Source: Loxodes magnus
Lineage: Eukaryota > Ciliophora > Karyorelictea > Loxodida > Loxodidae
Direction: 5' to 3'
DNA length: 64,000 nt
Assembly (NCBI GenBank): GCA_946699065.1
Contig: CAMPDV010000367.1
Span: 248,001-312,000 of the forward strand
In this document: positions 4,103-54,045 of the stretch, piece by piece
How the letters are laid out: every line of letters begins with the position of its first letter
Position numbering within the stretch: the first letter of the stretch is position 1
Made by a program: the position numbers and the translations under genes
Notes under the pieces: model-generated
Database searches by the model: none
What the model saw: the letters and a program-made list of their open reading frames with translations, nothing else
What the model was told of the DNA's origin: nothing

Positions 4103-4800
4103 ATGAAACATAAAAGAGATTAAAATTTTACTATCGAAGATATCTGAAAGCTTTTATATAAAAGTGGAGCGGGGAAAGACAAGAGATCATAAATCAGAAT
4201 TTGAGAATACAAAGAGATTATTCCTAGTGACAAGTATTTGAAATCTCTAAAATAATTAGATAAAGTTTCTGTTACTTAGCAAATTATTAATATAGAGAAA
4301 GCTTATATTAAATAATAAGAAATAAATTGGATAAATTGCTGAAGGAGTTCAAGCTATTCATGCTGCAGACATAATTCATAGAGATATAAATTCACTTAAT
4401 ATTTCACTAAATGAAGATGATGCTCCTTAAATATAAAATCTAGGATTAACAGAGGATAGAGCAGATTTATATGAGGAGGAGTAGGAAAGAAACTTTTTGT
4501 GAATGGCACCTGAAATGTTTTAAAATAAGGTTAGTTAAAAGAGCGATATCTGATCTTTAGCTTGCGTAGCAATTGAAATATTGAATGAAACTTTACCTTA
4601 TCCTTATTCTTGACATTAGTAAAATATTTAATATTATGCTTGCCATGAAAAAATATCCAGATTTTTCATTAGAAATTTATTAAAACAAAGAGTTTGTTGA
4701 TCTATTAGAACGCTCATTCAGTTATGATTAAAAATTGAGACAGAAACCCTTTCTATAAAGTAAGCTGAGGATGATGATTTTACTAAATTTCAGATACTGA
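4103..4800 (+). pseudogene. Protein kinase pseudogene related to the 6.2-8.1 kb kinase
   Basis: Starts with an ATG at 4103 and follows the N-terminus of the intact kinase-kelch gene: TIEDIWKLL, GAGKDKRSQIRIWEYKEIIPSDKYLKSLKQL. The glycine-rich loop and catalytic Lys region are then missing, with a jump to LANYQYRESLYQII. After a frameshift the catalytic part is well preserved: AIHAADIIHRDINSLNI, NLGLTED in place of DFG, WMAPEMF and KSDIWSLACVAIEI, where both W are TGA codons. A further frameshift separates PYPYS from NKEFVDLLERSFSYD. The deletion and frameshifts indicate a dead duplicate. No kelch part could be followed downstream. Confidence 0.8.
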
Positions 4801-6227: not shown

Positions 6228-8144
6228 TCAATTTTTTTATAGTTTTTATTAGTTAAGTTAAACTTCATAATCTTCTCTCCATATTCTATCCCCCATATCG
6301 AAGCTATATATTTTTCTCCCATCAAATGTATATATTTTTTACCTTCACATTATAGGGTTCTAGTAACAACTTTCTCCATTATAAATTTGTCGCTTATCTG
6401 TTCCATCAAAAAGAGGTTTAAAAGAAATTTAATTTTGCTGCCATATTAACTCATAAACTCCATCAAGTTACTCACCAAAAATATAAATACTTTCAGTTTC
6501 ATTATCTCTTACCGAACTTACGGTAGAACTACTTGGCAAATACTCAGATAAAATTTGTCAATAGTTCTCTTCAATATCATATTATTAGCAATGATACATA
6601 TGAACATCTTTATTTCTTATCCCTCCAAATACTAGAATATTTTATCCATCAGAAATGCATCCTATGTTTCTTACACCAAATATTATATTTTCAATATTCA
6701 AGCACTCTCCTCTGTTGAAATCAAAATATTCGCAAGCTTCTTAATTTTAAGACGAAGAAACACTCCCAGATATTAAATAAACGAACATGTTATCATTTCT
6801 TCTGACATGCACCATTCCATGGCCACTTCTAGGATTTTTCATATTGCAACTTTTATCTACTTTTAGAGGATCTCTAAGAACTGCTTGAAAATTCAGCTAA
6901 CATTCTTCACTAATGCCACCAGAAACAAAAATATATTATTAAGTATAGTAAACAGAGCTTCCTTAGTCCATTTTTATTCCAATACTCTCAATATCAATTG
7001 GGATGAAATCTTAGTCGAATAATTGAATTAAAGTATTTCTATCCTTTAAAATAGAAACTTCTTAAGGCTTTTTTATGTTTTACTCAAGTTCTTGTGTACT
7101 AAGTGGTGTTTTGTTCTGAGAACTTGATCCTCCAAAATATACTTCAGAAAAAGGTATCTCTTCTTGGTTATTTTATTATATTTATTATTATTAATAACTG
7201 TATTTAAACTTTATCATTTCAATTATATTCCTGAATGTTAAAATTTTTGGTCTGTCTCTTGGTTCATAACTAAAAGATTTTTATAGAAGGTTTGTTAAAT
7301 CTTTATCATGTAATATTTAATCTTTAAATTCTGGTATATTTCTTTACTAGCAAACATGCTACTTGATTTACTTTTTATTTTTTAGGAAAGGATAAGGAAT
7401 TTGCTCATTAAATATTTCAACAGCGAGACAGGCTAGTGATCATATATCGCTTTCTTGATAAACTTTATAATTAAAAATTTCAGGTGCCATTCATTATCAT
7501 GTACCTCTTTAATGTTAAGTGCTTGAAAATTCTTATAAACTAGCCATTCCTAAATCAGCTATTTTAGGAGCATTATTTTCATCTAATCAAATATTTAATG
7601 ATTTTATGTCTCTATGGATTAGCCCCACAAGGTGAATGGCATTAACTCCTTCAGCGATTTAGCCAAGAATTTATAGTTTCGCATAATATCTAGACTTTCA
7701 ATCTTGTTAAAGATCTTAGAATAGTTTTTTTTCTTATATCAAGTTATATAAACTTCCTTATCTTTAATAGTTAGTTAAATGGCATAAGCAATCTTCATTA
7801 CTATTTTTAATATTAATTATAACTCCTAAAAGTCTCAAAACTCGAGGATGATTTACAGACAGAAGTGAAGAACATTCGTTATAGAAACTATTTATAAGAT
7901 CACCAGTTTGTTGGTCTTTACCTTATTACATAATTTTTAATGCATAATCAAGTCCCTAAATGTTTATAGCATATACTTATCCTTATCCTCCTTTACCTAG
8001 TTATTTTAAATTATTAAGAAACTCTTTATTTGGAATTAACTCTTCATACTTCCAAATTCTAACAACAGCATTTGGAGCCTCTCCAGCTCCATTTCTCATT
8101 AAAAGTTCTAATAAGTCTTCAATAGTTTTTAATTTCTTCTCCAT
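6228..8144 (-). CDS. Protein kinase fused to kelch-like beta-propeller
   Basis: Read with TAA/TAG as Gln and TGA as Trp, the minus strand gives 638 residues from ATG (8144-8142) to TGA (6230-6228) in one frame without an indel. Kinase domain, about residues 45-315: glycine-rich loop GKGGQGQV (50-57), YALKIM with the ATP-binding Lys near 70, Glu near 90, HRDIKSLN (177-184), ADLGMA where DFG reads DLG (196-201), GTWQWMAPE (214-222), ESDIWSLAC (231-239) and RDRP (296-299). All catalytic residues are present, so it should be active. A Gln-rich linker leads to a C-terminal half with kelch-type blocks such as PRSGHGMVHV, ILVFGGIRNKDVHMYH and IYTFDGRKIYSFDMGDRIW. These suggest a substrate- or partner-binding propeller. 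No membrane segment is seen. The related copy at 4.1-4.8 kb is broken. The number of kelch repeats was not resolved. Confidence 0.85.
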
Positions 8145-8352
8145 TATATAAAAGATAGAAATGAATAAATAAAGCAATTAGTTTAAACTTAATAAGGAAG
8201 GTTTATAAAATTACTAAAGCCTTTTAATTACTATATAAGCAAATCTAATTAGATAAGACATTTCTCTTCCATTGTAATATAGTTCTTTTGTATAATTTGT
8301 TTATTCTAACTGAAAAATTACTTTTATAATTTTTTCGCTAAAAAAGGAGAAT

Positions 8353-9062: not shown

Positions 9063-10559
9063 AAGCACAGTAGAAGCAAAAATTTAAACACTTTATTTTA
9101 TTATTATTACAATTATAAGTAATTTATACATTTGAATAATGCTTAATTAAATTACTAGAATCAAATAAATTTTGAACTTAAAAGATTAAAAAATACATTA
9201 TCAAATAAAAGTTTAGTAAATGTTTATTTTCATTGGAATTTAAACCAATTTCACCATCCATTCCTATGAGGTTCAAGTCCTCGACCATTTTTTATGTGTA
9301 TAGTTACCCCTTTCTCTCCATCTCACTAAGATCTACTCTATATCCTATCTTTCTTTTGTAAGCTCTTACGTTATTTATAAAAAGTCTTGTTAATTTTTAG
9401 ACCCTTTAATCCTCTTGCTTTTAAGCCTTTTGCAACCAATGAAGTTTATTATTAAATTAGTGAAAAATTACAATTTTTACACCTCTTAATCTCCTATTTT
9501 TGTTTCTATTTCGGAACAATTTTATAAAATTCCTCAAATTAATTTAGATTATTTTTTCTATAAGTTAAATATTAATATATCCAAATAGTTAAAAAATTAT
9601 AAAGTTAAATATAGTTTAAATCTCTAATTTTAATACTATTAAGTATTAACTCAGTCTAATTATTAGCTATTTCTGTTTTATTTATTAAGTTAGTTTTTAG
9701 TATGTTAAATTATAGTTCTTTTAAAATATATCTAAGTTAGTATGTTTATTAGTGATTTAAGCAAACTCAAATTTAAATTTTATTTCATAGATATCTATCT
9801 AAGTTTTCAGTTTCCACATAGCAAATTGGATCTATTACTTCATTACGATTATTTAAATTTAAAAACAATATTTTATAATTATAATTAAAGCTAGAAGAGG
9901 TAAATAGACTAGTTTAATTTTAATTAATTATTTTTATATTTACCATAAATAAATAATTGATTTTTACTTAAATCATCTAACTCCTTAGTTGTTATTATTT
10001 TTAGAACTATTTGAAAATAAATGAAAAGAGAGAAAAAATCACAAATAAATGAAATTAAGAGTCTAGTAAAATTTTAAATTAAAGAGGATTAAACTAGCTC
10101 TATCTTTAATAGGATATAATTATAAATAGACTTATTGATTTAAATTAATTATAAGTTAATAATATAATATTATAAATTTAACTATGAAATTAATTTAAAT
10201 TAAAAATAGATTACATTTAAATTACAAATCTTTGGAAAATTCTTCTTTGCAGATTAGAATATTCATTTTAAGAATCAATATTCTTTGTCTCATAGACTTA
10301 GTTCTTCGAATTCTAAATTCATTAAATTCATTAAAAAACTGCTCGCCTTCCGCTTAATTGAAGTTTTAAATGTATAAAATCTCCTTTCCTGCATGCTCTA
10401 TCCTTGTATTGCACTTTTTACTTGACTTCTCTCTTTTATATTATCTAAGTTGAGAATTTTTTTTCTAGATTTTCCCATTTTCTGATGGGAAGAATTCCGT
10501 CACTCGTTACTTCAGTAGCTATTAGTTAACATTTTTCCAGATCGAAATCAAACTAAAAT
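9063..10559. other. AT-rich interval; duplication begins near 9,555
   Basis: Apart from a tRNA-like T-arm at 9268-9283, nothing is recognised. From about 9,555 the sequence matches 38,755 onward, marking the left edge of the large duplication. Confidence 0.4.
9268..9283 (+). other. tRNA T-arm-like (B-box) remnant
   Basis: GAGGTTCAAGTCCTC forms a T-stem and loop and contains a good pol III B-box. It is followed by CGACCATTTTTT, resembling a tRNA 3' end with a pol III terminator. No matching 5' half, D-arm or anticodon arm was found, so this is at most a tRNA fragment. Confidence 0.3.
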
Positions 10560-11612
10560 TAACTTTTAAGTAAGCCCATCACTAATGCTTCTAAACAACG
10601 AATCTTTACTTGAAATTATTATTTCTAAATTACTAGAATACTATGTAAGATTATTTTGTGATGGTATTTATTCTTATTTATTGCTCTATAAGCAATCGTA
10701 AGCTGTCATTTAATGCAAATAAATTTAGCAGAATTGTATGAAGTAATAAGTATTCCGTTAATGAAAAGATTTATTTTCGATATTTTTATTTAAAACAATA
10801 TCCATATTGATATCATTTAATATTTTAAATTATTCCAATCTTTCCTGAAGTTTTCGATAGCTTCTTTGTATTTTTCTAATTTTTTACATATAGTTTTTGA
10901 TCATTTAGTTAGAGAGAATTCATAATAGTCTTATTACGAATAGTAACCAGCCTTCTATTGTTTTATAGAAGCTAAGTTGATCCTTCATATTTTTATTTTA
11001 TATTTTCTACAAATTTACTTACAAGTAGAAAATAGACTAACCCTGCTGATGATACAATTTAATTGCATTGTATTTCTATAGTCATGATATTACTATTATT
11101 CCTTTGTCATATTGATAATGTCTTCCTTACTAGATTATCTTTTCAATACCTTCTTTTCGCGATTTTTATTTGTTTTTCTACTTGGTATTTTTAAGGATTT
11201 AATTTGTGCTCCTAGAGTAAAACTCTTTAATAATGATGAATTTTGATAGTATTCCCTAATGTTCTATTCAGTCGTAAATAAACGAAAATTCTAACTTAGC
11301 TGCAAAAGAGCACTTAATAGGGCTTGAATATATTTATCATTGTCAGACGATTTGTAGTCAAATAATTTTTCCTTTATCTAAAATATAAATTCACTTCTGA
11401 GCTACTAAAATTGGCTTCCCAGATTTTAAAATGCTAGGAAACAATTAAGGAACATTTCCAACCTTGCTGAGAAATTTAAAAAATCAAACTACTTTATGCA
11501 CGCTAAGCTTTGACTTGGTTTTCCAACCTCTACTTGTTTTATTATAATTTTAAAGCATTTTTTCTAATTTATACAGTTTGTATTGTAAAAATATTAAACT
11601 AGAAACTTAATT
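10560..11612 (-). pseudogene. Repeat-associated gene family, member 1
   Basis: Minus-strand reading gives protein-like blocks: KCSFAAKLEFSFIYDWIE, then FYKTIEGW, then IKNYMQKIRKI. The same blocks recur at 32.8-33.5 kb as QFQLEFSFILVEQN, FYKIIEE and IKNDMQKIRKI. At the 5' side (11541-11605) lies the 65-base sequence common to all members. I cannot name the family; no catalytic motif is evident. Compared with its copy at 39.7-40.7 kb there are single-base indels, so at least one of the pair is broken. It could be a transposon-encoded protein or a lineage-specific gene. Confidence 0.45.
11541..11605 (-). promoter_or_regulatory. Conserved 65-base upstream element of the gene family
   Basis: On the minus strand: CTAGTTTAA, then TTTTTACAATA, then ACTGTATAAATT, then TTTAAAATTATAATAAA. 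It is the best-conserved stretch shared by six loci. It always precedes the family's coding-like part, so it may be a promoter/5' untranslated region or the terminal sequence of a mobile element. Confidence 0.5.
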
Positions 11613-11619
11613 AAATTAA

Positions 11620-13033
11620 ATAACAATCATAATTTAAAAGAAAAAGCACTGTAAATCTTAGAGTATTGTAAGTTAATATTAGACACTTAAAGGAATAAAT
11701 AGATATTAGCTTATACTCAAATAACTTAAAACAAATAAAATTAATATTTATTCTTTCTTCAACTTCTAATATTAGAACTCAACACACTTAAAAATAAGCT
11801 ATAACCTACATTTAGTATAAATAAGACTAAACTTAAACTGCTTTAAATATATTAAGTTTTTAAAAAGATTATAATAATTCATTATATAAGCTTGGATTTC
11901 TACGTCTAAATTCTTTTAGCTAGGTTTCTCATAATTTTTATTGTTAACATTAATTTAAATAGAAAAGACAGACTATTTTACAATTTCTATAAAGGATTAC
12001 AACCACTTAATACATAATGAATTATGGACCAACTGTAAAAAAGCATTTTTCATAAGCTTAAATAAAAAACTTTATTATCTGTTTACTTTAAAATCAATTA
12101 ATCCTTATAAATACTCAGTCTAAATCATTTATATAGATTTAGAAGACTCATAATGTCTTTCCCTAATTATCTTCTTTTAAATTTATAGATAATAAGAAGC
12201 TTGAATATATATATATAAAAGACTTATAATTTTCTGAGAATCTACTCTTTTTACTCTTAATTTCTTCAATCAGTATAGATAAAAACTAAATCACTACAAT
12301 ATTAAAATAAGTTCAATTGAGTAATAAACTAATAGAAATCCATATAATAAATATATAACATTTTAGATAGTTTAATTTATAGATACATTAAGACTCTAAT
12401 AACTATGCATATGCTCATAATAACTTAATTAAAAGTTAGAAATTAAAGATTATTCTCAAATAATTAAGTTATAAAACATAGTTATTTATCTTTCTAGTTA
12501 TAGCAAAATAATAAATTAGAAAGAAAATATCTATTAAATATAAAATTCCTTGCTGCTTTTTACATTCACAGAAACTTAAATTTTAAAATCTTAGTTAAAA
12601 AGAAATAGCATAATAATATATTAAAACTATTTACCTGGAAACTGGTATCTTTTTTAAAAATTTGAGGAGAATTAAATAGATAAATTTATTTCAAAGCAAT
12701 TTCCTTTGCTAGATGAACAGAATAACTATATTGTTAAATAATGATGCTTAACTATTTTTCTATATGATTTATCTATTTAATTTTTTCCTTAAAAAAATTA
12801 AAAATTATGGTGACTAAATTTTTATAATTTGAAAAGGCTTTAAGATAAATTTTAAATTTACCATTTATATACTTTTAGATGATATTAGCTTATGTAACTG
12901 TATTAAATAGGTCTAATTGAAAAATAAACTGAAAAGCTTATATTTTAGTTTATGTTTATACTAATAAGTTAAATTAATAACCTTTTTAATAGTTTAAATA
13001 CATTCTTATTTAAATCCTCTAAAAAATAAAAAT
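11620..13033. other. AT-rich non-coding sequence
   Basis: Most of it is duplicated at 40.7-41.9 kb with many substitutions and indels. No frame is preserved between the copies that I could see, and no RNA gene was found until the tRNA at 13,034. Confidence 0.45.
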
Positions 13034-13105
13034 GTCGGTGCAGAGACTTGAACTCCGGTTTCGACGGCCACAACGTCGTGCCCTAACCACCTAGACTACA
13101 CCGAC
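13034..13105 (-). tRNA. tRNA-His (GTG), copy 1
   Basis: The minus strand folds as a cloverleaf: acceptor GTCGGTG/CACCGAC, anticodon stem CGACG/CGTCG with loop TTGTGGC (anticodon GTG), and T-arm around GTTCAAGTC. It has no intron and no encoded CCA. The 72 bases are identical to those at 37,024 and 46,840. Confidence 0.95.
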
Positions 13106-14300: not shown

Positions 14301-15558
14301 TTTACTATTTAAATTTAAAACATATGCAATTTAATCTAAATTAACTTAAAAATTTTAATTTTTTATATCAGCATTCAATTCACTCACAGTCTTTAATTAT
14401 CAACTGATTTAACAATTTATAGAGCTATAAGGGTATATACTGTAATCTCTTACTATATCTATTAGAGTCATATATCTTTGGTATATTTATCCTATTTTTA
14501 CAATATTTTACTAAAACTTACTTTTATACGCTTAATAAAAAACAGCTGATATTAGTTATAATTTATAAGCTTTAAGTTCCTAAATCCCTTTTATTTAATT
14601 AATAATCTTAATTTATAATAACTAAGAAATTTCTAGAAATGAAATATTAACTAATAATTAACAAAATTCTTATAAACTGACATCATGTACACTATAAATC
14701 TTAATTCCTCTCTAGATAATTAAATAGCTATTAATAATCTAATCTAATATTCTAAAATTAGGTTCTTAAAAATAGATGTTAGAGTCATAATCTAAGCATA
14801 TAAATCTAAGAGTTAAAATAAGTTTTAGATATAATTCCATTAGAAATTCTTTAAAGAAAGCGTAATTGTTTTAATATAAAATTAAAGCTATCTAATTGTT
14901 AATTTTAGTACCTAGTTAATCTCAAATTTTACTATATGCTTCTGCTTTGTCTACCTTTAAACAAGTATAAACAACAAACTATACTAAAAATCTTTTTTGG
15001 TTTACCTCAAAAGTTTGGAAATAAAGTTGTTATAACTATAATCTTTAAACAACTAGTCTTTTAATTGAATACTTGACTAGAATAATTAAAAGAAAGAGAG
15101 TGAAAATGATTTATAAATAAGTATTGCAAATAGGCTAATTATAAATAGTAGAATTAACAATTAAAAATGATTGCTATTTAATCTTATTTTAGTATAATTT
15201 AGCTTTTTATTATTACACAAATAAGCTTAGAATATACTCTAAAGCCAATATTGTAAAGCTTGTATATTAAAAAAATAGTAAAAATATAAGGAATTTATTT
15301 CTCTTAAATCAAACAATGACATTAAAAGAGCTAACTTATTTAAAATTACCTAACTAGAAATTAAAGTGAAAATAATCCAATTTTAAACTACATAGAGATC
15401 ATAGTAGATACTAAAAATTACGTTATTAATTAAATAAAACATCTAGGAAGTAAACTGGCAAAGCAACTAACTATATATGGCTTATTAACTTAGTCTTAAT
15501 AATTAAAAGCTAAGCTTAATTAAGTCTAAATTATTAAAAATAAGATAATTGTTAAAAA
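14300..15558. other. AT-rich intergenic sequence upstream of receptor gene
   Basis: Conserved in patches with 48.7-50.06 kb, but without a preserved frame that I can recognise. Similarity between units falls off just before the receptor ATG, which supports that start. Confidence 0.4.
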
Positions 15559-18500
15559 ATGCTTATTTGAATATTCTTAATATTGGGTGCAACTCAAATA
15601 AGTTCGATGCAATTTTTAATTGTTAGCTCTCCTCATACTTTACCTTACTTACCTGGTTTCATTTAAAAGTAGGTGTCTCAAAGTTTATTTGGCAACTATT
15701 CTTTCAATCCTATCCATCTATATCTGGAGAGTTCTAACTTCTCAATTTAGATCATTGAAAGATAAATATAAGATCATAAAATATAATTCATTCTGGATTT
15801 AACATTCAACGTCTTCTTCACTCATAAGCTAAGCTTTTTAAAGACTAGCATTCCTTAGTTTGTAGCCTATAGAGATAATAATAATTTTAAAAGCTAGAAA
15901 GTGTATTGAATTATGCCTAGTTATAAGTAAGAAGGAAAAGCATTGTAAGGATTATTTGCAAGCCTAAACTTTACTAGGATATCTTTTTTAAGCTAAGAGG
16001 AGAATAGATTTTATAAGCCATCTGACTTTATTGATCAAAGCAAAATAAAAATAAGCACCTCTTTAAATATTCCTTTGGATTCAAAACTTGGTCTGGATTA
16101 ATCAATATGTAATGACAATTATATAAAAGAAAGAATACTGAAAGAAATTATTTAAGTATATAGAATTTATGGTTCTTCAGTAATCCTAATTTCATTAGAA
16201 GTTTGCTGGTAAGCATATATTTACACGGTCGCTGCTGATTATGAAAAAACAAAAGCTAGACAAACATGAGTAGCAGGTCTTGAGTCTTCAAATATCATAA
16301 ATCCAAAAATAACTTAAACTATATAATAAAGCTCTAGGACTCGCATTAGTATCTTAGATGATGGAATTATAGCTTTAACTCCAAAACTTTATATCCCTAG
16401 TAATTACTTTGATCTTACAATGTATTATGTTCAACGTGTTCTAGCCTTTATAGAAAAAATAGCATATTTAAAAATAAAAGAGAATCATCAATCTTTCATA
16501 GAAGCCTTTACCAGGTTTAAAGTGGAAATATTCGATAGTAACAATTTTATGCGGACAGAGTTTTCAGTTTTCAATCTTCAAAATAGAAGACCAATTGAAG
16601 TGCTAGAAATAAAAGATGACTAAGTGATTAAAATATAAGATATTATTTATCCTGGACCAAGTACAACACCACCTCCTAATTAATTTCCAATAGAAATGTC
16701 TTACTCAACTAACGATTAGGAGCCAGACGGTTCATAATCTAGCATAATTTTAATATCTCCTCCAAAGCATATTCCTTGTATTGTTGATTATATCAACTTA
16801 GAATTAAGATAACTCAGCCAATATTATTTTAAAGCAAACCCAATTTCATACGGTGGAATGAAATTTAGTTTAAACTATACTTTGTAAGTTTTATTGGAGA
16901 ACTATTCTGAAATAGGAATAGCTCATTAAGGTAGCTTATTAATTTAAAGTTGGATAACCGCTTACTACGTTTTTAAATATATGAATGTGAATATTCCATA
17001 TTTTATAGCGAGTAGAGAAGATGAACTATCAGATATTCATAAATATGAGAATGTTATATACAACTACATTTCATGGGAACTTTTTCAAGATATGTATATT
17101 TTATTTTTAATCAGAAACAAATGAGATAAAATTGGTATGATTTTTGAGAAATACGAACCTTCTAATAAAAAAATTCATGACAAGATAAAGTAATGACTGA
17201 TTAGTAACGACAAGGTTATTTTAAACTCCAATGAAACAACATTCTTAGAATTGAATAAATCAGATAATTAGAAGCTTTATGGTGATATAACTCGTCAGAT
17301 AATTTAGAAGGAAATTAGAATTATATTTTCCTTACCTGGCTTAAGTTTAGTTTATAATATTAGACGATAAATTATGAATTTTGGTTGAAAAAAAGGGGAC
17401 ATCAACTTAGTAATTATGTACACTGCTAATACCTTTGAATATGGAAGTGATGATGATGAATTGATAGATTCAAAAAAGCTACTTCATGGAGCGATGACTA
17501 TTTCTCCTTAAGAGTATGAAGGAGAGAATGGATAGAAATTACTAGAAGTTCAAAAAGAATGTATAGATTTTTTACCTCCTTCACCTTGCTATTATATTGA
17601 GTAACCGTTAATAATTGCTAGAGGACTAGAACTTTGCTTAGAATAAGGCTAAAGTTTTTTAAATTCAAAAAATTTGATATATAATTTAAGAAATCCATAG
17701 TTCACGGGATGTAGTGGATCAGTAAAATTCAAAAAGAACTCGAACTTTAGAGATAATCTAAACTTTTTCTTCATCAATAATGTTTATGACTGACAGTGAA
17801 ATTTACATTTGGTTCCTTATCTTGAATATTGTAAAACATGTGCAATTGTATGAAATAAGTTAAACGAGCCTACTTGAAATGACAATACCACAGATACTCC
17901 TAAAGATTCTTTCGAATTATTTGACAGTAATTGTGACTTCTCAGTTCGAAGGGTGAAAAAATTCAATTTAGGTTATAATATAAGTATTTTAGAGTTAATA
18001 TTTATATCTTTAGTTACTTTGACTGCCACAATTTGGAGCTTTAAAGTTTGAAGAAATCATAAGCAGGAAATACTAAGCAATAAAGTATTGATGAGTAGCG
18101 AAGACGAAATATTTATAATATATTTACTGACTCAATTTATATAATACGTAATGTTAGGACCAGATTTAAGTAATCTATTTTTTCAAGCTACTTTTTCGCA
18201 AATTTTATCGCTTGACTTTTTAGTTATAAAGATGAGCAATTATTTCTTTTGAACTAGTGTTCTCTTTAGTTCAATCTTGGCCTTTTTTATCATTTTTCTA
18301 TATTTAGCTTTTTTATTCTAATTCGAGGTGAAGTATAAAAGCAATTGTATACTAAGAAATTTGGGAAAGTTCTCTTATCTTTTTAGTCCTATTTTGACAG
18401 AAATAATTTTTATGCCAGTTATTTTTATACTAACAGAGATATACAAATGCAGCTATGGTAGAGATAGCAATTTAAATGAAGAAATAGAAATCTCCGAAAG

Positions 18501-19533
18501 CTTTTTAGATATAAACTGCTCTAAATAATGCTTTACATAAATGCATTTTATAGCCATAGCCTTATCAACCCTAGCTTTATTTTTCTACATTCCTTTAGTA
18601 GTTTTAGTAAGACCTCACTGATAAGAATTATAAGGAGATACTATTCATATAAAATAGCAACCCTGATATATTGTACTTAAGAGCACTATTTAGATTATAA
18701 TAGTAATTTTGAGTTAGGCTTTAAAAGAATTTCATCCTTTCCTTCATGGTATTATTTACTCTCTAATATTTCTAGTTTTTGCTATTCTAGTGCTTATAAA
18801 GAAGGCTTTAACTTACCTAAAATTTAACTGAATGTAATTTATTCTTCTTCTACTTACTTCCTTCATAACTGCAATAGTGGCTTTATCATTCTAAACCTCT
18901 AATTCAGGGAAAATAGTTTTATAGATAATACTTATATCAGGTATTGGATTAATCTTTATAGTAGGTATAGTAGTTATGATTAAATACCCTTCATACCTCA
19001 AATAAATAAAGCCAGATTTAGTAAACTTATTTAGATTTGGATTTAGACTAAGAGTAGATGTAGGTATACTAAATAAGCATATAGATACATAAAACAAAAG
19101 AATATAAATATATAAACAAATATTCCTTTAGAACTCTAGCAACTCAGCTTTAATGAGAACAAACTCTTCCTAGGATTAAAAGTGAATAGCATCTTTACAA
19201 GACAAATAAACTCTTATGAGCGTTAAGAACTAAGTCACTACTTTTGTTTTAGAAGAAAGCTAAGAAAATAACTTTACAATAGATTACTCTTAACAAAAAA
19301 TGAATGAAAATACTAAAAACTAAAGTATAAATCCTTGAGTTACTAAATTTAAATTAGATAGCAAATAAAGTAAGTTATTCTTATAGTAAACAGAAGCTAG
19401 ACAGGAAAATAGCATACCTTAGGAATATGAAATAAAGGACCTTACTTAACACTATAACTTTTCATTTTAAACTATTAAATTTTAAATTTAAGATTTAAAG
19501 AAAAATAGGCTATGTCTTATTCTAATTAAATGA
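15559..19533 (+). CDS. Receptor-like multi-pass membrane protein with ANF/PBP1-like ligand-binding domain, copy 1
   Basis: 1,324 residues from ATG to TGA in one uninterrupted frame when TAA/TAG are Gln and internal TGA is Trp (about 17 TGA against 4 TGG). A hydrophobic signal peptide starts at residue 1. Residues about 400-730 resemble the type 1 periplasmic-binding/ANF receptor fold: a YNYISWELFQDMY block, FGWKKGDINLVIMYT, and the typical closing FTGCSGSVKF (about 715-724). A Cys-containing linker (CKTCAIVW, about 758) leads to roughly nine hydrophobic segments between 807 and 1139. A DINCSKQC loop and RPHWQELQ also lie in this region. A polar tail of about 185 residues follows. The layout suggests a cell-surface ligand receptor, class C GPCR-like or a ciliate-specific multi-pass type. 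Similarity to the copy at 50 kb starts at the ATG and stops just after the TGA, which supports both ends. Confidence 0.85.
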
Positions 19534-20900
19534 CTAAGTTCTATTTAAAAATATTTATTTCATACTAATTAGATATATTTATATTGCTTGCTATTATTTT
19601 TTAATTTAAAGGTATAAATAAAAAGATTTAATGGCTTATAGTCACATCAAATTTTTATTAATTATGCTAACGGAAAGTAAATTAAATGAACCTTGTAATA
19701 GTTAAAAAGAGTTAACTTAGTTATTAAATTTCCTTTAGCTATTTTTTATAATTTTAACTAAATAGTTAATTAAAATTATTAGCCCTAGTATTAGTACAAT
19801 TCTATTTATGATTTATTAGCTCTATTTAGCATTAATTTGCTTCAATTAACTGAGAAATGAAAAGTTTAACTTAAGATTAAGTTATTAATTAAATTCTTTA
19901 TTTTCTAATCTTAAGATAAAGTCCTTATGATTTATATTTATTAATTAAGCCAAAACATTATTAAAACTGTAAGTTTTGCTTTGAAATATCTAAAAGTTTC
20001 AACCTAATTAAATTAATAGCTTACTTTTTAAGTATTGCTTACAATTACAAAGATAGACACTACTGGGATAGTTAGCTTATGATTAAGCTAAAAAAAATCA
20101 GATTAATAGAATAAAACTCTTGATATTTCATGTCAAGCTGAATAAATAAAGCATTGCTTATTATTTTTCAAGATGGAATTTCTCTTAAATTACAAAACTA
20201 AGTCAGGACTATTACATTAAGATGAGTATTCCTCATATAGGATATGCATGAGAACTATTATTTAATCTTTAAATAAATCTTTAAAATGATTAAAGAGAAT
20301 TATTGCAACTGAAGTTATCATAGAATGATAATTCTTGTAAAATATATGGTTTTCAATGCTATAATTACAACGGATGAAGATATTAACTTTTATCATAATT
20401 TCTACATTTTTAGTCTAAATGTAAAAAGCAACTTGTTTCAAAACATCTTCAGACCAAGAAATATGAAAAAATCTTGCTAATAATTAAGTAAATAAAAATT
20501 AGAAAATTTTATAGATTTTTACTCTTATTTTTAGGTATCCTGATCGAGCAGTTTTAATACTCCAATTTATTAAGGAATATCATATATCCTAGATAATTTA
20601 GACATTTGAAGACTAAACTAAGAAAAATTTGGAAAATAATTTAAATAACTTAATTTTATTTCCTTATATTTTCGAACTAAGAACATTGGTATTTTCTAAT
20701 TAACCAAAACATTATATTAACAAGAAGATAAAATAAAAATGGAAAAGCTATAAAAGCAATCTCCATAAAATTAATAAAGCTAAATAATTAAGAAATTAAC
20801 TATTGATAAAATTAGAAAAAGCATATATGCAATAATTGATAAAGTTGTATTTATTTAAATAAAAATAATATATAAATAGAGTTATTATAAAGAAGGAGTT
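19534..20900. other. AT-rich sequence downstream of receptor gene
   Basis: Strongly similar to 54.05-55.4 kb in unit 2 but with indels that do not keep a frame. Nothing was recognised. The first 60 bases after the TGA differ between copies, as expected of a 3' flank. Confidence 0.4.
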
Positions 20901-22350
20901 TTATCATTTTTAATAATTTAGATGAGGATAGCTGTGGCATGCACATATAATCCAAAAACTTATTGAAATTATAATCCAAATTTTTTATTTAATTTTATAA
21001 TAAGATTATCCCCTTTTTTATTATTCTAGATATATTTAATTATATCCTCTACAATAAAATTTAATTTTTTTATTTATTTTTCTATTTTCTAAGTTTGCTA
21101 ATATAAAAAAATTGTATCCTAAACAACTGTAAGCATATCATATTTTCCTCTCTAATTTCAATTTGTTTGTTGATATTTAAAATGGTGTCGAAATTTTTAT
21201 ATTCAGCTATAGCTCTTTTAAACCAGTTGAAAAGATATTATCACAATTTTTTATGATTGATTATTGACAATGTATCTTAAATTGCATTAAAAGCTAAATC
21301 TAACTTAAGGAAGATAATTAATTTTAGTAATTTATATCTGGATAAGTACATTAATATTTAATTCTTTGTTCTTAAATTTGTTTTTATTTATAATACTTTT
21401 AATTTAATTTAAGCTACTTAAATTATGCAGATGATTCTTCTTTTAGTTTGTAAGATATACATTTAATAAATTGATTATGTGGTTTAGCACATCAATAGAT
21501 TAAACAAATTTAAAATTAATATTTATAAATTCTCAATTATTTCCTTTAATTATGCTGATAAATACTCGTACTAGATAATCATCATTTCTTGTAGTAAAGT
21601 TTTCCACTTTGGTTTATCTCAAAGTCTAATACTTTCAAGTATTTTATTTACATTTATCACTGCTTATTAAATTTAAATTCTAACAAAAATTTTAAATATT
21701 ATTTTGCCATCGAACGCACTATAAATTAGGAAACAAGGGATCAGGCTTGAGATTCATTTGTTTAAATATTGCGTTTTTGTACAAAATTTTAATATTCGAA
21801 TTCTATTTTTTATTTTCATAATAATTCTGTGAGCATTGCTTACTTCTGCTTATTAGAGTTTTTCAGAGAATTAACAAAATACCTTGGCCAAAAGTTTAAT
21901 TTAATTTTATATTAAGATAAATATTCTTCTAAAACCTAACTCTTTGGCTTTTTTAGTTTTTTTAGTTTTTTAAGAAGATTCGATGATTTTTACTCTTTAT
22001 TGATAAGTAAATTTTTAGCTGATTTCTTTATCCACAATTTTTTCTATGCTTAAAAATAAAAATTTTGATTCAAAAGTTGATTTAATTAACACAAAAGCTT
22101 TGAATCCCTTTTATAGTTCTTCAATTAAAAATAACTTTTTAATTTACCCTGTTTTTGTATACTTCTTTTAGTGAATCAATATTAAGATGAACCTAATTAT
22201 TAATAGCTAGCTAAGCATTAAATAAAGCATACATTAGAAAAAACTTTTTCTTATTTCATTCAATTTTTTCTAATCTTTAGATGCTGCTCTTAACTTGGGG
22301 ATATTTTACAGACTAACTTTAAAAATTAATTTCAACTAAAATTTATTCCA
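20900..22350 (-). CDS. Hypothetical protein region, minus strand, unit 1
   Basis: The minus strand reads as protein-like sequence over long stretches: EEYLSQYKIKLNFWPRYF, then AHRIIMKIKNRIRILKF, then WDKPKWKTLLQEMM and YEYLSAQLKE, then NWFKRAIAEYKNFDTIL and MCMPQLSSSKLLKM. Frame changes occur near 21,880 and near 21,230. A short intron of about 34 bases beginning GTATTTTG and ending CTAATAAG could lie near 21,880, but it does not obviously restore the best frame. Unit 2 has the same region with other small indels, so one or both copies may be pseudogenes. No family recognised. Confidence 0.3.
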
Positions 22351-23249
22351 AAAAGAAATTAATTGCAATTTTATAGAAATTTATTTAAGTTAATGAAGCG
22401 AAATTTTTTTATAATAATTTAAATTTATCAATAAATAATTATTTTACTCTTTTATAAAATTGTTTGTTTTGCTTTTAATAATTTAACTATAATCTAATAA
22501 CCTTATAACTCTTTATACTTAGAATATTTAAAATTTTAAAAGTTATTTAGCATTCTATCATTAAGATTAATTAATATATATCATTTTATTTGAAATTCCC
22601 TCCAAATTTAAAAAGTTATCAAATAAACATATAATTGTTTCTTATATAAGCTTTATATTTTAGTTTGCTCCATTTATTTAAACTTATTTTCCTTTTTATT
22701 ATTTAAAATTAGTTGCTAGTATTATTGCTTATCCATTCTTTATTTTTGCTAAATTCAAGATATTTTCCTAATAAATATCTAGAATGCCTTTTTTTAAAAA
22801 TTTATTTACTCTTACTTCTACTTAGTTAGATCAATTTTATAAATAAAGCAAATATATTAGTAATTTGTTTACTATATTATTATATATAATACATCTTTTA
22901 AAAGGATTCTAAGCAACAACCAGGCTACGGCAGGTTAAATGGAACCAAATCGAAACTCTGAATGCACTAGAAATGGAATGCTCAGTAGTTAAAAATCTCC
23001 ACTATTGATTAATATTAAAAGATTCTAATGAAAGGTGGAATGGAAAGCCAAAAATGTCAAAAACAACAAAAGCAAAATTAATAAAGATAAAAGATAAAAC
23101 CCAGTTCATACTTAAGCCCAAAATAAGGAATTTCTCTCCGCCATTGTGCTGAAAGAACAAATAATGTGAATATACGAGAACGCATATTAAGATCTTATAC
23201 ATAGTGGCGATTACGTACTTTAGCTATTATTTAGACAACATAGCATGAG

Positions 23250-24100
23250 ATGGATAAAGCATTACAGAACAAGTAGCAATTAAAGAATTTAGAGAATGGT
23301 ATGGTAAAAATATGGCAAAAGAAATGCAAGATTCACAGTGAAATCCAACGGCTCAGTATTTGTTGTATTCAATGGCATGAAAAAATATATGAATATCACA
23401 AGCAAAAGAATATGAGAATAACGAGGGAAAAAATTTCAATTGAATAGAAAAATTAGCATTAATAGTATGGCCCACATAACTACAAAATATATTTCAACTT
23501 AAATGAATTTTCAAATATATTTGAAATAAAGAAGCCCATAGAAAATACGGAAAGATTAGAGGAGACATAATGCACACATTTCCAAGCATAAAGATATTAA
23601 CAGGAAAAATATGAGTATACAAGACTTAGAAAACCTAAAGGAAGCTAGTAGAATTCCAGAGGTAATAGATCTGCAGGGAAAATTAATGAAAATATACCAC
23701 CCTTTAAATTTTAAGGTCAATCAATGCGGTCAGAAAAGTAATACAGATAAATAAAGTAGAAGAATCGAAACAGTAAAAGTGAAAAAAATATTTTAATAAG
23801 TTAGGAAGATAACAAGCAGAGATTAGCATAGTTCTCAATTAGTCCGGGTTAGCAATGGCACAAGAAGAAAAAGAGATAATAAAAGAGAAAGAAAAGATGA
23901 TAATTAAAGAAAGAGAAGAAAGATTAATAGAAGAATGATAGTAGGAGAGACTTAAAAAACTAAAAAGAAATAAAAATTAAATCTTATTATAATGAAATTA
24001 TGAATGATCATTATTTCTCGCAAAAATGAGATTGAGCATACGTAAAAAGATTAAATAAAGATACATTTGTTTATTTGGGTAAATTAGAAAAGATTGATAA
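23250..24100 (+). pseudogene. LINE ORF1-like protein with decayed zinc knuckle
   Basis: Reads ARFTVKSNGSVFVVFNGMKKY (about 23325-23385), RKYGKIRGDIMHTFPSIKIL (about 23545-23605) and, after a frameshift, RIPEVIDLQGKL (about 23652-23687). The first two blocks recur in the minus-strand LINE at 3.3-3.6 kb. Near 23725 a CCHC-like knuckle survives as VNQCGQKSNTDKQS. In unit 2 it is CNQCGQKGNTDKQS, so the first Cys is kept only there, while the His and last Cys are lost in both. A charged region follows (KEKEEMIIKEREERLIEEW type). ORF1 proteins of LINEs bind the element's RNA. Confidence 0.65.
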
Positions 24101-24539
24101 GGGACAAAAACCAAGCAAAATTCAATCTAGAAAGATGATACAATGAGAAAGGAGGCAAACTCTAAAAATAAAATTGGGAAAATAATAAACAGGATGTTAC
24201 AGAATATTATGCTAAAAAAGAGGAATATCAAAAATATCTATATGAAACAGAAGAATTATAGGCAAGAAGAGAATTACAAGCAAGCAAAAAATGACAAAAT
24301 AAAAGTAGATGGAAGTAATAAACACTAACTAAGATATAAAAAGCAAAAAGACCACTTTAGAAATGAGAAACAAGAAAACAATATGAGGTAAGAGTAAGAG
24401 ACGAAGAATAATGAGAGTAAAATAAAAGAAGTATAAAAGGAAGAGGATCTGAAGGAAAATGTAGAAAAGAAAAAGGATAAGGAAAGAGAAGAAATATTAT
24501 AGAGCAGATTGAAGAATAACAATTGGGATAAATATTAAA

Positions 24540-25170
24540 AATGGTACAGCAAATGTAAGAGGAATATGAATAGAAAAACGCATTAGCAAAATTTATGAAG
24601 CAAAAAAGAATCCTCACTATGGCTAATTAAGAGATCTAAATCGAAAACTAAAATGAAATGTGTAATATAGCAGGATTTAAAAACTTGATTAAGTGGAATA
24701 AGAAAATGAAAAGGTGTAGATTTTTACATAAAAAGCGAAATATGTGATGAAATAAGAGAAATAAAAGGTGGAATAAACTAAACGATACTTTTCGGAGATC
24801 GTCAATAATAAGCATAGAAATAATGAAAAAACTTGCTGTAATAAATGTATATGAACCGCTTGCGAATGATTACATTTATTATGAACCATACTACAACTTA
24901 TTAAATTAATTCAAAATATTAGCGGCAGGAAGAGGAATCAGTGTAATAATAGTAGGAGATTGGAATGCTTACATAGAAAAGTGATTACCCAAAGTAACAA
25001 ATTCAGCAGGAAAAAGAATGTTTTAGTTTATGGAACAAAATAACTTAATATGTATTGGCACAGAGAACTTAGGAATGTATGCATATTAAAACAATGAATA
25101 TAGATAGATTATTTTTGTAATAGAAGAAAAACTGAGGGGAAAAGTAATGAAAAGTGACTTATATTTTTCG
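24540..25170 (+). pseudogene. LINE AP-type endonuclease domain, decayed
   Basis: The N-terminal motif reads TANVRGIWIEKRISKIYEAKK (about 24545-24607). The middle reads RSSIISIEIMKKLAVINVYEPLAND (about 24795-24870). The diagnostic catalytic motif is VIIVGDWNAYIEK (about 24945-24983), with NSAGKRMFQFMEQNNL after it. GDWNA corresponds to the GDFNA motif of APE-like endonucleases that nick target DNA for priming. The Trp of WLPK just after it is a TGA codon. Frameshifts lie between the blocks. This domain is missing from the unit 2 copy and from the minus-strand LINE. Confidence 0.75.
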
Positions 25171-25689
25171 CATATAATTGGAGAACTTAGACCAGAAATT
25201 ACACAATTAATTATTGAAAAAACAATCAGAAAGAAGAGAAAATAATAAAGATAAACTATGCACTATTAAAAAGATAGGAATTTTAGAATAAATTTGAAAG
25301 ATATACATAAGAAAACATATAGAAAGAAGAAATGAGCCATAAGAATGGAGAACAAATAAATAAATGATGGGGACAAAAATTGGAGAAAGGAGCATAAAAG
25401 ATATGCAGAATAATTAAAAATAGTAGAAACAAATTATAATACTAAGAAGAAACGAAAACGAGAAAGAATAATTTCAGAAAATAAAATAAACGAATAAAGG
25501 CGATTGCGAAAGAAAGGAGTGAAAGTAGTGAAAGAATAGTAAAAAAAGTGAATAAAATATTAAAAAGCAAAAAAGGTATATATTTAAGCACGAATGAAAG
25601 ATTTAAATTTAACTTCTTTATTAATAATGTAAATAAAGGAAAATTTACAGAAATGTGGAAGAAATTAAAAAATCTATTCAATAGAAAAA

Positions 25690-26760
25690 ATAATTAATGA
25701 ATACCATTTTAGAAGAAGATATTTAAAGTTTCAAAAATACATATCAAAACTTATATGAAAACGGGGATAACACTTTATCTAAGAAATTCATAAATGAAAA
25801 TAAAATAGAAATGTATGAATATGAATAATAAGAAAGCATGTACAAAATGAAAAGCAGTCAGACCTGATGAAATTAAACGAAGACTATTCTAGCAGAAAGT
25901 TAAAAATTAATAGAAATCATTTGCAGAATGATAGCATAAATATTAAGAGAAGGAGTAATACCAGTAGAAGCGAAGAAACAATATATTATATTATTGTATA
26001 AAAAAGGAAGTTAAATGGATCCTTTGAACTATAGGCCAATCTCCTTACTTAAATATTCTCTAAAGGTCATAGATATTTGGATTTTGTAGTAAATGTAAGG
26101 TCATCTACACAAATATCTAATACGGTTTCAAAAAAGATAAATCTTGCGCATTTTTCATTTTTAACTTAAGAACAGTATAAGAATTAGTATCTAGAAATAA
26201 TAAAATCACTTATGTGATTATTGTTGATATTCAGAAAGCATACGATTCAGTCTAGAGAAGTAATATATGATTGATTTTAAATTAGCAAATAAGTACCAAG
26301 ATAACTTAATAATCTACTAGTTAATTCTATGATGAAGAAGAGATTAAAATAAAAATAAATAATATATTAGCAGAAGTCTTCTAGACAAATAAAGGTGTAA
26401 AACAAGGTAGCATTATATCTCCTAGATAATTTAACTTGATAATAACAAATATTTTTCATAGTCTAGAAGAACAAGAGTTAGATATTACAAAATGATATAG
26501 AAATAAAGAAGTATAGAAGCATATGCAGATTTTTTGCTTTTGAGAATGACCTAGCACTAGTAAGCGAAAGAGATTAATTGGAAGAAGTAATCTAAGAACT
26601 GACACAATAAATGGATAAATTTTAACTGCAAATTGCAAATAAAAAAATGAATGATCTGAAATCAGAAGAGAATAAATATGAAAATATTGAAAAAAAAATA
26701 ATATAGATACCTTGAGAATAGAAAGAGTTAAATCTTTTTGGGTCATGTTAAGGAAGAAAA
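25690..26760 (+). pseudogene. LINE reverse transcriptase domain, decayed
   Basis: Blocks in order: KAVRPDEIKRRLF (about 25850-25890, frameshifted against its flanks), LLYKKGSQMDPLNYRPISLLKY (about 25992-26055), GFKKDKSCAFFIFNLRT (about 26120-26175), motif A IIVDIQKAYDSV (about 26218-26252), motif B GVKQGSIISP (about 26396-26425), and motif C split as YADF then NDLALVSE (about 26525-26570). A thumb-like FLGHVKEE follows. These are the signature motifs of LINE reverse transcriptases. Motif C is broken by a short insertion, so the enzyme is dead. Confidence 0.85.
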
Positions 26761-26984
26761 TATAAGTTTCGAAAAACATAGAAAAACTATGGAAAAATAG
26801 ATCGAAGCACGCAAAAGATGTAAAAGTGAGTGACAAGGAAATATGATTGTTCCTTTTGATAAGCTGTACTTTTTTTTAATACTTTATTATCTTGCTAATA
26901 AACTTCTTTTTGCAATTCTTCATTTATCTTTCTATTCGGTCTTTCTTAAGCAGTTTCTTGATAACTTTATCCTATGTTCTGATT

Positions 26985-46834: not shown

Positions 46835-46839
46835 AAAAT

Positions 46840-50064: not shown

Positions 50065-53000
50065 ATGCTTATTTGAATATTCTCAATCTTAGGTGTTACT
50101 CAAATAAGTTCATTGCAATTTTTAATTGTTAGTTCTCCTCATACAGTTCCTAACTTATCAGACTTCATTTAAAAGTAGGTGTCTCAAAGTTTGTTTGGCA
50201 ACTATTCTTTCAATCCTATCCATCTATATCTGGAAAGTCCTAATTTTTTAACTTAGACTATTGAAAGATAAATATAAGACCATAAAATAGAATTCATTCT
50301 GGATTTAACATTCAACATCCTTTACACCTATAAACTAAGCCTTTTAAAGACTAATATCCCTTAATTTGTAGCATACAGAGATATAAAATATTTTAGTAGC
50401 TAGAAAGTGTATTGAATTATGCCTAGTTATAAGTAAGAAGGATAGGCATTGCAAGAACTATTTGCGAGCTTAAATTTAACTAGGATATCTTATATAAGCT
50501 AAGAAGAGGATAGATTTTATAAACCACCTGAATTTATTGATCAAAGCAAAATACGAATAGTCAACTCTGTAATAATTCCTTTGAATTCAAATTATGGTCT
50601 GAATTAATCAATATGTAATAATGATTATATGAAAGAAAGAATACTGAAAGAAGTTTTTTAAGTATATAGAATATATGGCTCTTCAGTAATCTTAATGCAG
50701 TTGGAAGTTTGCTGATAAGCATGAATTTATGCAGTTGCTGATTTATACAAAGCGCTAGAGGCTAGGTAAGTATGAGTAACAGGCTTGGAAGCTTCTTATA
50801 TCATAAGTCCAAAAATATCTTAAATTATATAATAAAGCTCTAAGACTCGTGTTAGTATTTTAGATGATGGAATTATAGCTTTAACTCCAAAACTTTATAT
50901 CCCTAGTAATTACTTTGATCTAACAATGTATTATGTTTCACGTTGCCTAGCCTTTATCGTAAAAATTGGTAACTTAAAAGCAGAGGAAAATTATTAATCT
51001 TTTAAAGAAACATTTACCAAGTTTAAAGGTGAAACTTTCGATAGTAACAATTTTATGATAACAGAATTTTCAGTTTTCAATCTGCAAAATAGGAGACTAG
51101 TAGAAGTTCTAGAAATAAAAGATGACTAAGTGATTAAGGTATAAGAGATATTATACCCTGGACCAAGCACAACACCACCTCCTAATTAATTTCCCATAGA
51201 AATGTCTTACTCAACTAACGATTAAGAACCAGACGGCTCAAAATCTCATTTCATTTTAACATCTCCTCCAAAGCATATTCCTTGCATTATTGATTATATC
51301 AACTTAGAATTAAGATAACTAAGTTAATTTTATTTTAAAGCAAACCCAATTTCATACGGTGGAATGAAATTTGATTTCAATTATACTCTGCAAGTTTTAG
51401 TGGAAAACTATCACGAAATAGGAATAGCTCATTAAAGTAGCTTATTATATTTAAGCTGGATATCCACTTACTTCGTTTTTAAATATATGGAGGTAAATAT
51501 TCCTTATATTATAACGAGTAGAGAAGATGAACTATCAAATATTCATTAATATGAGAATGTTATATACAACTATATTTCATGAGAATTTTTTCAAGACATG
51601 TATATTTAATTTTTAATCAGAAACAAATGAGATAAAATTGGTATGATTTTTGAGAAATACGAACCTTCTAATAAAAAAATTCATGACAAGATAAAGTAAT
51701 GACTGATAAAAAATGATAAGATAATTCTGAACTCCAATGAAACTACACTCTTAGAATTTAATCAAACTGAAAATTAGTAGCTTTATGATGATATAGCTCG
51801 TCAGATAATTTAGAAGGAAATTAGAATATTATTTTCCTTACCTGCTTTAAATTTAATTTATAAAATTAAATAAAAAATTATGAAAATTGATTGATAAAAA
51901 GGAGATACAAATTTAGTTATTATGTACACTGCTAATTCCTTCGAATATGAAAGTGATGATGGTGAGTAGATAAATTCAAAATAGTTATTACATGGAGCGA
52001 TGACTATATCTCCTTAAGAATATATAGGAGAGATTGGATAAGCTCTGTTAGAAGTTCAAAAAGAATGTATAGATTTTTTACCTCCTTCACCTTGTTATTA
52101 TATTGAGTAACCGTTAATAATTGCTAGAGGACTTAAACTTTGCATAGAATAAGTTTAAGATTTTCTAAATCCAAAAAATTTGATATAAAATATGAGAAAT
52201 CCATAATTAACGGGATGTAGTGGATCAATAAAATTCTAAAAGAACTCCAACTTTAGAGATAATCTAAACTTTTTCTTCATCAATAATGTTTATGACTGAC
52301 AGTGAAATTTGCATTTGGTTCCTTACCTTGAATATTGTTAAACATGTGCAATTGTATGAAATAAGCTAAACGAACCGACTTGAAATGACAACACCACAGA
52401 TACTCCTTAAGATTCTTTCGAATTATACGACAGTAATTGTGACTTCTCAGTTCGAAGGGTGAAAAAATTCAATTTAGGCTATAATATAAGTATTTTAGAG
52501 TTAGTATTTATAACTTTAGTTACTCTTTCTGCAACTATTTGGGGCTTTAAAGTTTGAAGATCTCATAAACAAGAAGTACTGAAGAATAAAGTATTGATGA
52601 GTAGCGAAGACGAAATATTTATAATATATTTGCTGATTCAATTTATATAATACGTTATGTTAGGACCAGATTTAAGTAATTTATTTTTTCAAGCTACTTT
52701 TTCCCAAATTTGATCGCTTGACTTTTTAGTTATAAAGATGAGCAATTATTTCTTTTGAACTAGTGTTCTCTTTAGTTCAATCTTGGCCTTTTCTATCATT
52801 TTTCTATATTTAGCTTTTTTATTCTAATTCGAGGTAAAATATAAAAGCAATTGTATACTAAGAAATTTGGGAAAGTTCTCTTATCTTTTTAGTCCTATTT
52901 TGACAGAAATAACTTTTATGCCAGTTATTTTTATACTAACAGAGATATACAAATGTAGCTATGGTAGAGATAGCAATTTAAATGAAGAAATAGAAATCTC

Positions 53001-54045
53001 CGAAAGTTTTTTAGATATAAACTGCTCTAAATAATGCTTTACATAAATGCATTTTATAGCCATAGCCTTATCAACCCTAGCTTTATTTTTCTACATTCCT
53101 TTAGTAGTTTTAGTAAGACCTCACTGATAAGAATTATAAGGAGATACTATTAATATAAAATAGCAACCCTGATATATTGTACTTAAGAGCACTATTTAGA
53201 TTATAATAGTAATTTTGAGTTAGGCTTTAAAAGAATTTCATCCTTTCCTTCATGGTATTATTTACTCTCTAATATTTCTAGTTTTTGCTATTCTAGTGCT
53301 TATAAAGAAGGCTTTAACTTACCTAAAATTTAACTGAATGTAATTTATTCTTCTTCTACTTACTTCCTTCATAACTGCAATAGTGGCTTTATCATTCCAA
53401 ACCTCTAATTCAGGGAAAATAGTTTTATAGATTATACTTATATCAGGTATTGGATTAATCTTCATAATAGGTATAATAGTTATGGGAAAATACCCTTCAT
53501 ACCTCAAATAAATAAAGCCAGATTTAGTAAACTTATTTAGATTTGGATTTAGACTAAGAGTAGATGTAGGTATACTAAATAAGCATATAGATACATAAAA
53601 CAAAAGAATATAAATATATAAACAAATATTCCTTTAGAACTCTAGCAACTCAGCTTTAATGAGAACAAACTCTTCTTAGGATTAAAAGTGATTAGCCTCA
53701 TTACAAGACAAGTAAATTCTCATGAGCATTAAGAACTAAGTCACTACTTTTGTTTTAGAAGAAAGCTAAGAAAACAACTTTACAATAGATTACTCTTAAC
53801 AAAAAATGAATGAAAATACTAAAAACTAAAGTATAAATCATTGAGTTACTAAATTTAAATTAGATAGCAAATAAAGTAAGTTATTCTTATAGTAAGCAGA
53901 AGTTAGGCAGGAAAATAGCATACCTTAGGAGTATATAATAAAGGAACTTACTTAACACTATAACTTTTCATTTAAACTATTAAATTTTAAATTTTAAATT
54001 TAAGATTTAAAGAAAAATAGGCTATGTCTTACTCTAATTAAATGA
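50065..54045 (+). CDS. Receptor-like multi-pass membrane protein with ANF/PBP1-like ligand-binding domain, copy 2
   Basis: 1,326 residues, again one frame from ATG to TGA. The net length difference from copy 1 is two codons, from a -1/+7 pair of indels in the tail that keeps the same terminal TGA. Domains are as in copy 1: signal peptide, ANF/PBP1-like domain closing with LTGCSGSIKF, CKTCAIVW replaced by CQTCAIVW, about nine membrane segments, polar tail. Many differences are silent only in this code: TCA TGG GAA becomes TCA TGA GAA, TGC TGG becomes TGC TGA, and TAA becomes CAA. The last third is nearly identical to copy 1 while the N-terminal third has diverged. Both copies therefore look functional; the diverged outer domain may bind a different ligand. 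Confidence 0.85.

Follow-up and report, generated by a model that had tools for sequence, protein, structure and literature searches.

Genetic codes without a dedicated stop codon raise the question of how ribosomes know where to end. The window, the whole stretch of 64 kb of DNA analysed here, contains no stop-to-stop run of 300 codons under NCBI table 11. A first-pass annotation had claimed that all three stop codons are sense codons in a gene at 15559-19533 and in its partner, TAA and TAG encoding glutamine and TGA encoding tryptophan, and that this fits table 27 or 28, not table 6. Which code do these genes use, and which codons end them? With a probability of about 95%, the code in use here is NCBI table 27, the ambiguous code of karyorelicts, and the window belongs to the nuclear genome of Loxodes magnus or an organism very closely related to it. 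In this code, TAA and TAG would be read as glutamine, and TGA would mean tryptophan within genes and stop near the transcript end. The reading of all three codons as sense is confirmed as real, and the code itself is already known for karyorelict ciliates. The window is a clean worked example, and paralogue pairs like the one it contains can be used to test both codon meaning and gene ends. The GC content of the window is 16-27% in 4-kb bins.

The central evidence comes from the following gene pair:

15559..19533, plus strand: gene A, a receptor-like membrane protein of 1325 codons including the terminal TGA, with TAA/TAG read as Gln and TGA as Trp
50065..54045, plus strand: gene B, paralogue of gene A, 1327 codons including the terminal TGA
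16207..16209, plus strand: silent Trp swap, TGG in gene A and TGA (50713-50715) in gene B
17074..17076, plus strand: silent Trp swap, TGG in gene A and TGA (51580-51582) in gene B
19531..19533, plus strand: candidate terminating TGA of gene A

The name receptor-like is the author's interpretation: a stretch at the N-terminus resembles a signal, and hydrophobic segments are numerous. A Pfam search with both genes returned no family, and the best PDB match of the receptor had a non-significant E-value of 0.3. AlphaFold, given two sequences, produced no usable model of residues 1-1190 of receptor A (mean pLDDT 28.9). Relatives sought by pattern gave two matches in viral contigs and ten in genome contigs, none of which was confirmed in a search that may leave out close genomes. 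A codon-usage gene search across the whole window picked out the receptor pair and a single segment of a kinase gene, as well as a weaker segment on the opposite strand within receptor A; its sliding-window variant was too noisy and yielded no further genes.

Neither receptor frame is open unless TAA, TAG and TGA all count as sense codons. Counting the terminal TGA, 85 codons of gene A and 96 of gene B are stops under table 11. Gene A contains 50 TAA, 17 TAG, 18 TGA (one terminal), 4 TGG, 18 CAA and 4 CAG codons, and gene B 57 TAA, 17 TAG, 22 TGA (one terminal), 2 TGG, 19 CAA and 4 CAG. The TGA:TGG ratio of 4.5:1 in gene A agrees with the roughly fourfold excess noted earlier and rises to 11:1 in gene B. 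The two frames align over 1325 codon pairs, 1021 of which are identical. The comparison of 15559-19533 with 50065-54045, which had been proposed as a check, gave 129, 77 and 172 substitutions at codon positions 1, 2 and 3 (chi-square 35.9, p 1.6e-8). There is no indel in 15559-17658 (2100 aligned coding bases), and a single one of 6 bases, in frame, in 17659-19530 (1872 bases). In contrast, eight indel events lie in the 224 aligned bases just upstream of the gene, two in the 100 bases at 19556-19655 and 18 in 3197 bases further downstream. Similarity between the copies begins at the ATG at 15559 and drops just beyond the TGA at 19531-19533: one of the 25 aligned bases differs at 19531-19555, as against 25 of the 100 directly beyond. 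Since the coding sequence is free of frameshifts between indel-rich flanks and its substitutions follow a three-base periodicity, the receptor frames are protected coding frames and a product of neither chance nor decay.

Decay has to be considered because decayed copies do occur in the window, among them a kinase relic (4130-4652) and a LINE (24123-27201). The loci could on this basis be taken for stop-filled pseudogenes under table 6 or the standard code; however, this is hardly credible given receptor frames without frameshifts between flanks that have them. Moreover, over codons 1-700, the more divergent part of the pair, the residue is kept at 14 of the 15 TGA entries and at all four TGG entries, which places them near the top of the list, and three unrelated domain families score higher when the stop codons are read as sense. 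The 17 (gene A) and 21 (gene B) internal TGA codons within conserved frames exclude table 6 as the code of the pair, as the first-pass annotation had held. Within the conserved frames, all three codons are sense codons, TGA acting as tryptophan and TAA as glutamine.

The meaning of the individual codons can be followed through the replacements between the two genes. TGA is conserved at 18 sites, including the terminal one, and is swapped with TGG twice and with TAT and TTA once each; both TGG/TGA swaps named earlier are present. TAA is kept by both genes at 42 sites and exchanged for AAA (8), CAA (6, the TAA/CAA swaps also described before), TAG (4), TTA (2) and three other codons once each. 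For TAG, 13 sites are conserved, and swaps occur with TAA (4), AAG (2), AAA (1) and TTG (1). A codon model fitted on the first 1300 codons of the pair ranked Trp best for TGA, with Phe and Tyr 1.80 and 1.81 log units behind, and Gln best for TAA, with Arg and Lys 1.75 and 1.93 behind. TAG scored best as Lys, 2.4 log units above Gln and 1.0 above Arg. When TAA and TAG were treated jointly, Gln led Lys by 0.27 log units and Glu was 7.3 behind. In controls, the model put the true residue first in 10 of 13 codon sets; it missed by 3.4 for AAG, by 2.3 for ATG and by 0.2 for TAC. Differences of such magnitude in the pair are therefore not decisive. After this test, the pair was dropped as a judge by itself of Gln versus Lys.

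Conserved domains offer a second line of evidence, for which four further features of the window are needed:

6228..8144, minus strand: protein kinase and Kelch gene with TAA, TAG and TGA in frame; candidate ends TAA at 6260-6258 or TGA at 6230-6228
4130..4652, plus strand: decayed kinase copy, N-lobe and C-lobe pieces out of frame with each other; TGA in both WMAPE and SDIWSL
24123-27201: decayed LINE
24838..25071, plus strand: Exo_endo_phos_2 endonuclease piece of the decayed LINE; one TGA (24982) in the matched stretch, which fits Trp

The kinase-Kelch gene matches Pkinase with an E-value of 3.2e-42, its Kelch matches being weaker. The motifs WMAPE and SDIWSL lie within 4500-4559 (plus) and 7434-7493 (minus), and both W positions are TGA in both copies, just as the first-pass annotation had read them. 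With the other stops masked, nine residues and masking were compared at the TGA sites of the kinase (bits given as Pkinase/PK_Tyr_Ser-Thr): Trp reached 128.1/108.6, Tyr and Phe 126.9/102.2 each, Leu 121.1/99.6, Cys 115.3/94.2 and masking 115.3/94.1. In the PDB kinases aligned to the masked sequence (best five and three alignments), Trp/Tyr stand opposite the TGA of xMAPE and Tyr/Trp opposite that of SDIxSL; two other TGA codons face Leu and Pro/Thr in these alignments and not aromatics. The single TGA of the LINE endonuclease, which belongs to family PF14529, also scored best as Trp (28.4 bits; Phe 25.0, Cys 19.7, masked 19.5, Arg 18.5). The reading of TGA as tryptophan is thus the best-scoring one in the receptor pair, the kinase and the endonuclease.

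For TAA and TAG together, ten residues were compared in the kinase, and Gln (132.1/111.6) stood ahead of or level with Lys (127.9/111.6), Asn (126.4/105.2), Glu (124.5/104.7) and Tyr (112.9/93.5). For TAG alone, the two kinase models split between Gln (145.2/126.2) and Lys (144.2/126.6), with Glu (143.7/125.8) and Arg (143.4/125.3) following. The LINE endonuclease gives Gln and Glu equal scores of 22.7 bits, with Lys at 21.4 and Tyr at 18.5. The weak match to Kelch_4 ranks Gln behind other residues (Tyr 23.8, Leu 22.3, Lys 21.4, Glu 20.8, Gln 19.6 bits). Elsewhere in the genome, in loci sampled mostly around tRNA-Lys matches, nine candidate coding stretches were picked from 41 listed by codon score; six of the nine matched Pfam families at an E-value of 0.001, including a kinase-Kelch copy, an otubain and a nucleoplasmin-like domain. 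Residues were re-scored in the otubain gene alone (contig C91), whose matched domain has ten sites (six TAG, four TAA) and no TGA: Gln led with 116.2 bits, followed by Lys (114.6), Glu (114.2), masking (109.5) and Tyr (103.5). Six-frame Pfam scans of 1-4200, 8200-13000, 19600-22900 and 23000-27800 and a scan of the minus strand at 36400-38500 found the LINE endonuclease only.

The earlier claim that TAA and TAG both mean glutamine is therefore supported, with a reservation on TAG: TAA alone is best as Gln in the pair, and TAA and TAG together are best or tied as Gln in the kinase, the endonuclease and the otubain; TAG alone, however, has Lys ahead in the pair and shows no clear lead among Gln, Lys, Glu and Arg in the kinase. 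TAG is clearly a sense codon, its meaning as glutamine resting more on knowledge of the family than on the window. That TAA and TAG encode another residue is very improbable overall. Lys ties with Gln under PK_Tyr_Ser-Thr, trails it by the small joint margin in the pair and leads there for TAG, but the otubain favours Gln over it and the other residues. Glu, which would make the code Blastocrithidia-like, equals Gln in the endonuclease; it falls 7.6/6.9 bits behind in the kinase in addition to its deficit in the pair. With Tyr, both kinase models score lower than with masking. A split of UAA as Lys and UAG as Glu, which has reportedly been described for another ciliate, gave 141.2/125.4 bits in the kinase, as opposed to the 145.2/126.2 for Gln.

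With the sense meanings of table 27 retained, the choice between this table and table 28 depends on which codons end genes. In both receptor genes, a TGA lies where the similarity between A and B drops, and the last internal TGA precedes the terminal one by 65 codons (gene A) and 67 codons (gene B), in what are two related genes only. In the kinase gene, an AT-rich composition resembling a 3' UTR starts at the TAA at 6260-6258, and more TAAs follow. A near-identical sibling of this gene is found on the same contig, within the 10 kb that precede the window, where two of the kinase-gene TGA codons are TTA and TAT. Its similarity to the kinase gene is lost about 20 bases past the TAA, and it has no in-frame TGA for about 70 codons. 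The two copies differ at 24 codons, with 3, 13 and 10 differences over the codon positions; since this pattern is unlike selection, at least one kinase copy may be drifting. Kinase relatives sought by pattern in viral contigs gave three matches, none of them confirmed.

A Condylostoma-type code (table 28) assigns the same amino acids, but in it any of the three codons can also terminate a gene close to the transcript end. The composition of the kinase gene from its TAA onwards and the lack of a TGA shared with the sibling speak in its favour, as does the presence of TAA in both receptor genes at positions -14 and -16. The true 3' end of the kinase may, however, be lost in both copies, as the distribution of their differences over the codon positions would allow. 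The genome of Condylostoma magnum is compact. The repeat-rich architecture seen here matches Loxodes magnus, whose only published stop is UGA. Table 28 is considered unlikely, if the least so of the alternatives to table 27. The distinction rests on the identity of the organism and not on this DNA: of the two tables that the first-pass annotation had named, the published code of the organism selects table 27. A depletion of UAA about 20 codons ahead of the stop has been described for L. magnus (PMC11441545, excerpt) and is unmatched in the receptor genes; this depletion is statistical and lies outside the definition of the code, so it does not exclude membership.

Several known systems resemble the one described here. 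The somatic assembly of L. magnus comprises 706 Mbp, is repeat-rich with abundant LINE domains RVT_1 and PF14529, and uses table 27 (PMC11441545, excerpt); a decayed LINE with a PF14529 endonuclease piece is found in the window as well. In the karyorelicts with table 27, Loxodes magnus and Parduczia sp., UAA and UAG likewise mean Gln and UGA Trp, UGA serving also as stop (PMC11441545, PMC4967479, excerpts). For karyorelicts, a transcriptome survey gives stop as the sole meaning of UGA and glutamine as that of UAR, and leaves UGA as Trp unmentioned (PMC6935857, excerpt). Of the 2652 codons of the receptor pair, 40 (about 1.5%) are UGA, including the two terminal ones, which is no genome estimate, as against a reported 0.120% in Parduczia sp.; in Condylostoma magnum, UGA usage is 0.042%. 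Outside the ciliates, Amoebophrya sp. ex Karlodinium veneficum, a dinoflagellate relative, also has three sense stops, tRNAs cognate to UAA and UAG and a tRNA-Trp(CCA) with a 4-bp anticodon stem, but this form is one of seven tRNA-Trp(CCA) genes there, as opposed to the many-copy arrays found here (PMC12005148, excerpt). Blastocrithidia (table 31) reads all three stops as sense, with a 4-bp tRNA-Trp(CCA) supplying Trp at UGA (PMC13092985, PMC12153298, excerpts); it differs in that UAA and UAG are Glu, which scores clearly worse here in the pair and the kinase.

How would these codons be read and genes be ended? Based on the literature, a tRNA-Trp(CCA) with a 4-bp anticodon stem, the UGA-reading form reported earlier for Loxodes, would read UGA in this species, and cognate tRNA-Gln would read UAA and UAG. 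Closeness to the poly(A) tail would turn UGA into a stop, and 3' UTRs are short in L. magnus (PMC11441545, PMC4967479, excerpts). No tRNA-Gln with a UUA or CUA anticodon is among the five tRNAs of the window, and the tRNAs in 51 sampled genome sequences, most of which were chosen around tRNA-Lys matches, are specific for Lys, Ala, His, Ser and Arg only.

A pattern search of the assembly (705,730,643 bases, 7,843 contigs) for tRNA-Trp(CCA) gave 147 matches, and a backwards control gave 52. Among the 100 matches listed of the 147, 93 lie in tandem arrays: contig C67 carries 48 at a spacing of about 187 bases, and contig C148 carries 45, nearly all spaced by 241 bases. The array matches are identical over 30 bases, and the other seven of the 100 listed differ. 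All four array copies that were read whole (two per array) have an anticodon stem of 4 bp, with A/C or T/C in place of the top pair. A lone match on contig C110 has a T-A top pair and hence a 5-bp stem, and at a further match on contig C12 ARAGORN found no tRNA. The tandem arrays of tRNA-Trp(CCA) are a new detail: the main text of the L. magnus paper, as far as excerpted, has no word beginning with 'tRNA' (PMC11441545), and among the papers listed by a search on tRNA gene arrays and Loxodes, none deals with such arrays by its title. The arrays may raise UGA reading and, if they are expressed, would suggest that tRNA dosage helps in winning UGA from the release factor. Genes for tRNA-Lys and tRNA-Ala likewise occur in repeats or arrays in the same genome, so such arrays are not special to Trp.

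The receptor-like gene and its paralogue lie within a long duplication, which a LINE interrupts in one of the two copies.

15538-22885 and 50043-57397, long duplication, the two copies 92% identical
24123-27201, decayed LINE (endonuclease detected by Pfam, reverse-transcriptase motifs spotted by eye and lying in different frames)

Divergence between the duplication copies is uneven, amounting to 14% across the receptor gene's first half, 4% across its second half and the downstream region, and 25-27% in the short flanks adjoining the gene, which suggests that the duplication was shaped by patchy gene conversion. The partner copy near 59100 does not carry the LINE, whose insertion therefore seems later than the duplication.

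Kinase genes are also present in several copies.

6228-8144 (-) and 1101-3209 of L031 (the 10 kb preceding the window), near-identical kinase-Kelch copies
4130-4652, decayed third kinase copy

The similarity between the kinase-Kelch copies stops about 20 bases past an in-frame TAA and no TGA is common to both, which hints that UAA might terminate some genes or that these copies lost their ends. In the third copy, the N-lobe and C-lobe pieces lie in different frames, and about 108 residues of its sibling are absent between them.

Genes for tRNA-Trp(CCA) form tandem arrays on two other contigs of the assembly, with L051 and L052 as example stretches.

C67:482323-491201, tandem array, 48 of 100 among the matches listed
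C148:155464-167690, tandem array, 45 of 100 among the matches listed

The top anticodon-stem pair is broken in all four array copies read; the lone match on C110 (L053) has a full anticodon stem.

The window also contains three tRNA-His(GUG) genes, each within a near-identical repeat of about 90 bases.

13033-13105, 37023-37095 and 46839-46911 (-), tRNA-His(GUG)

A fourth is found in the adjoining stretch L032, neighboured by further Ser(UGA) and Arg(CCU) tRNA genes resembling the pair at 36109-36323.
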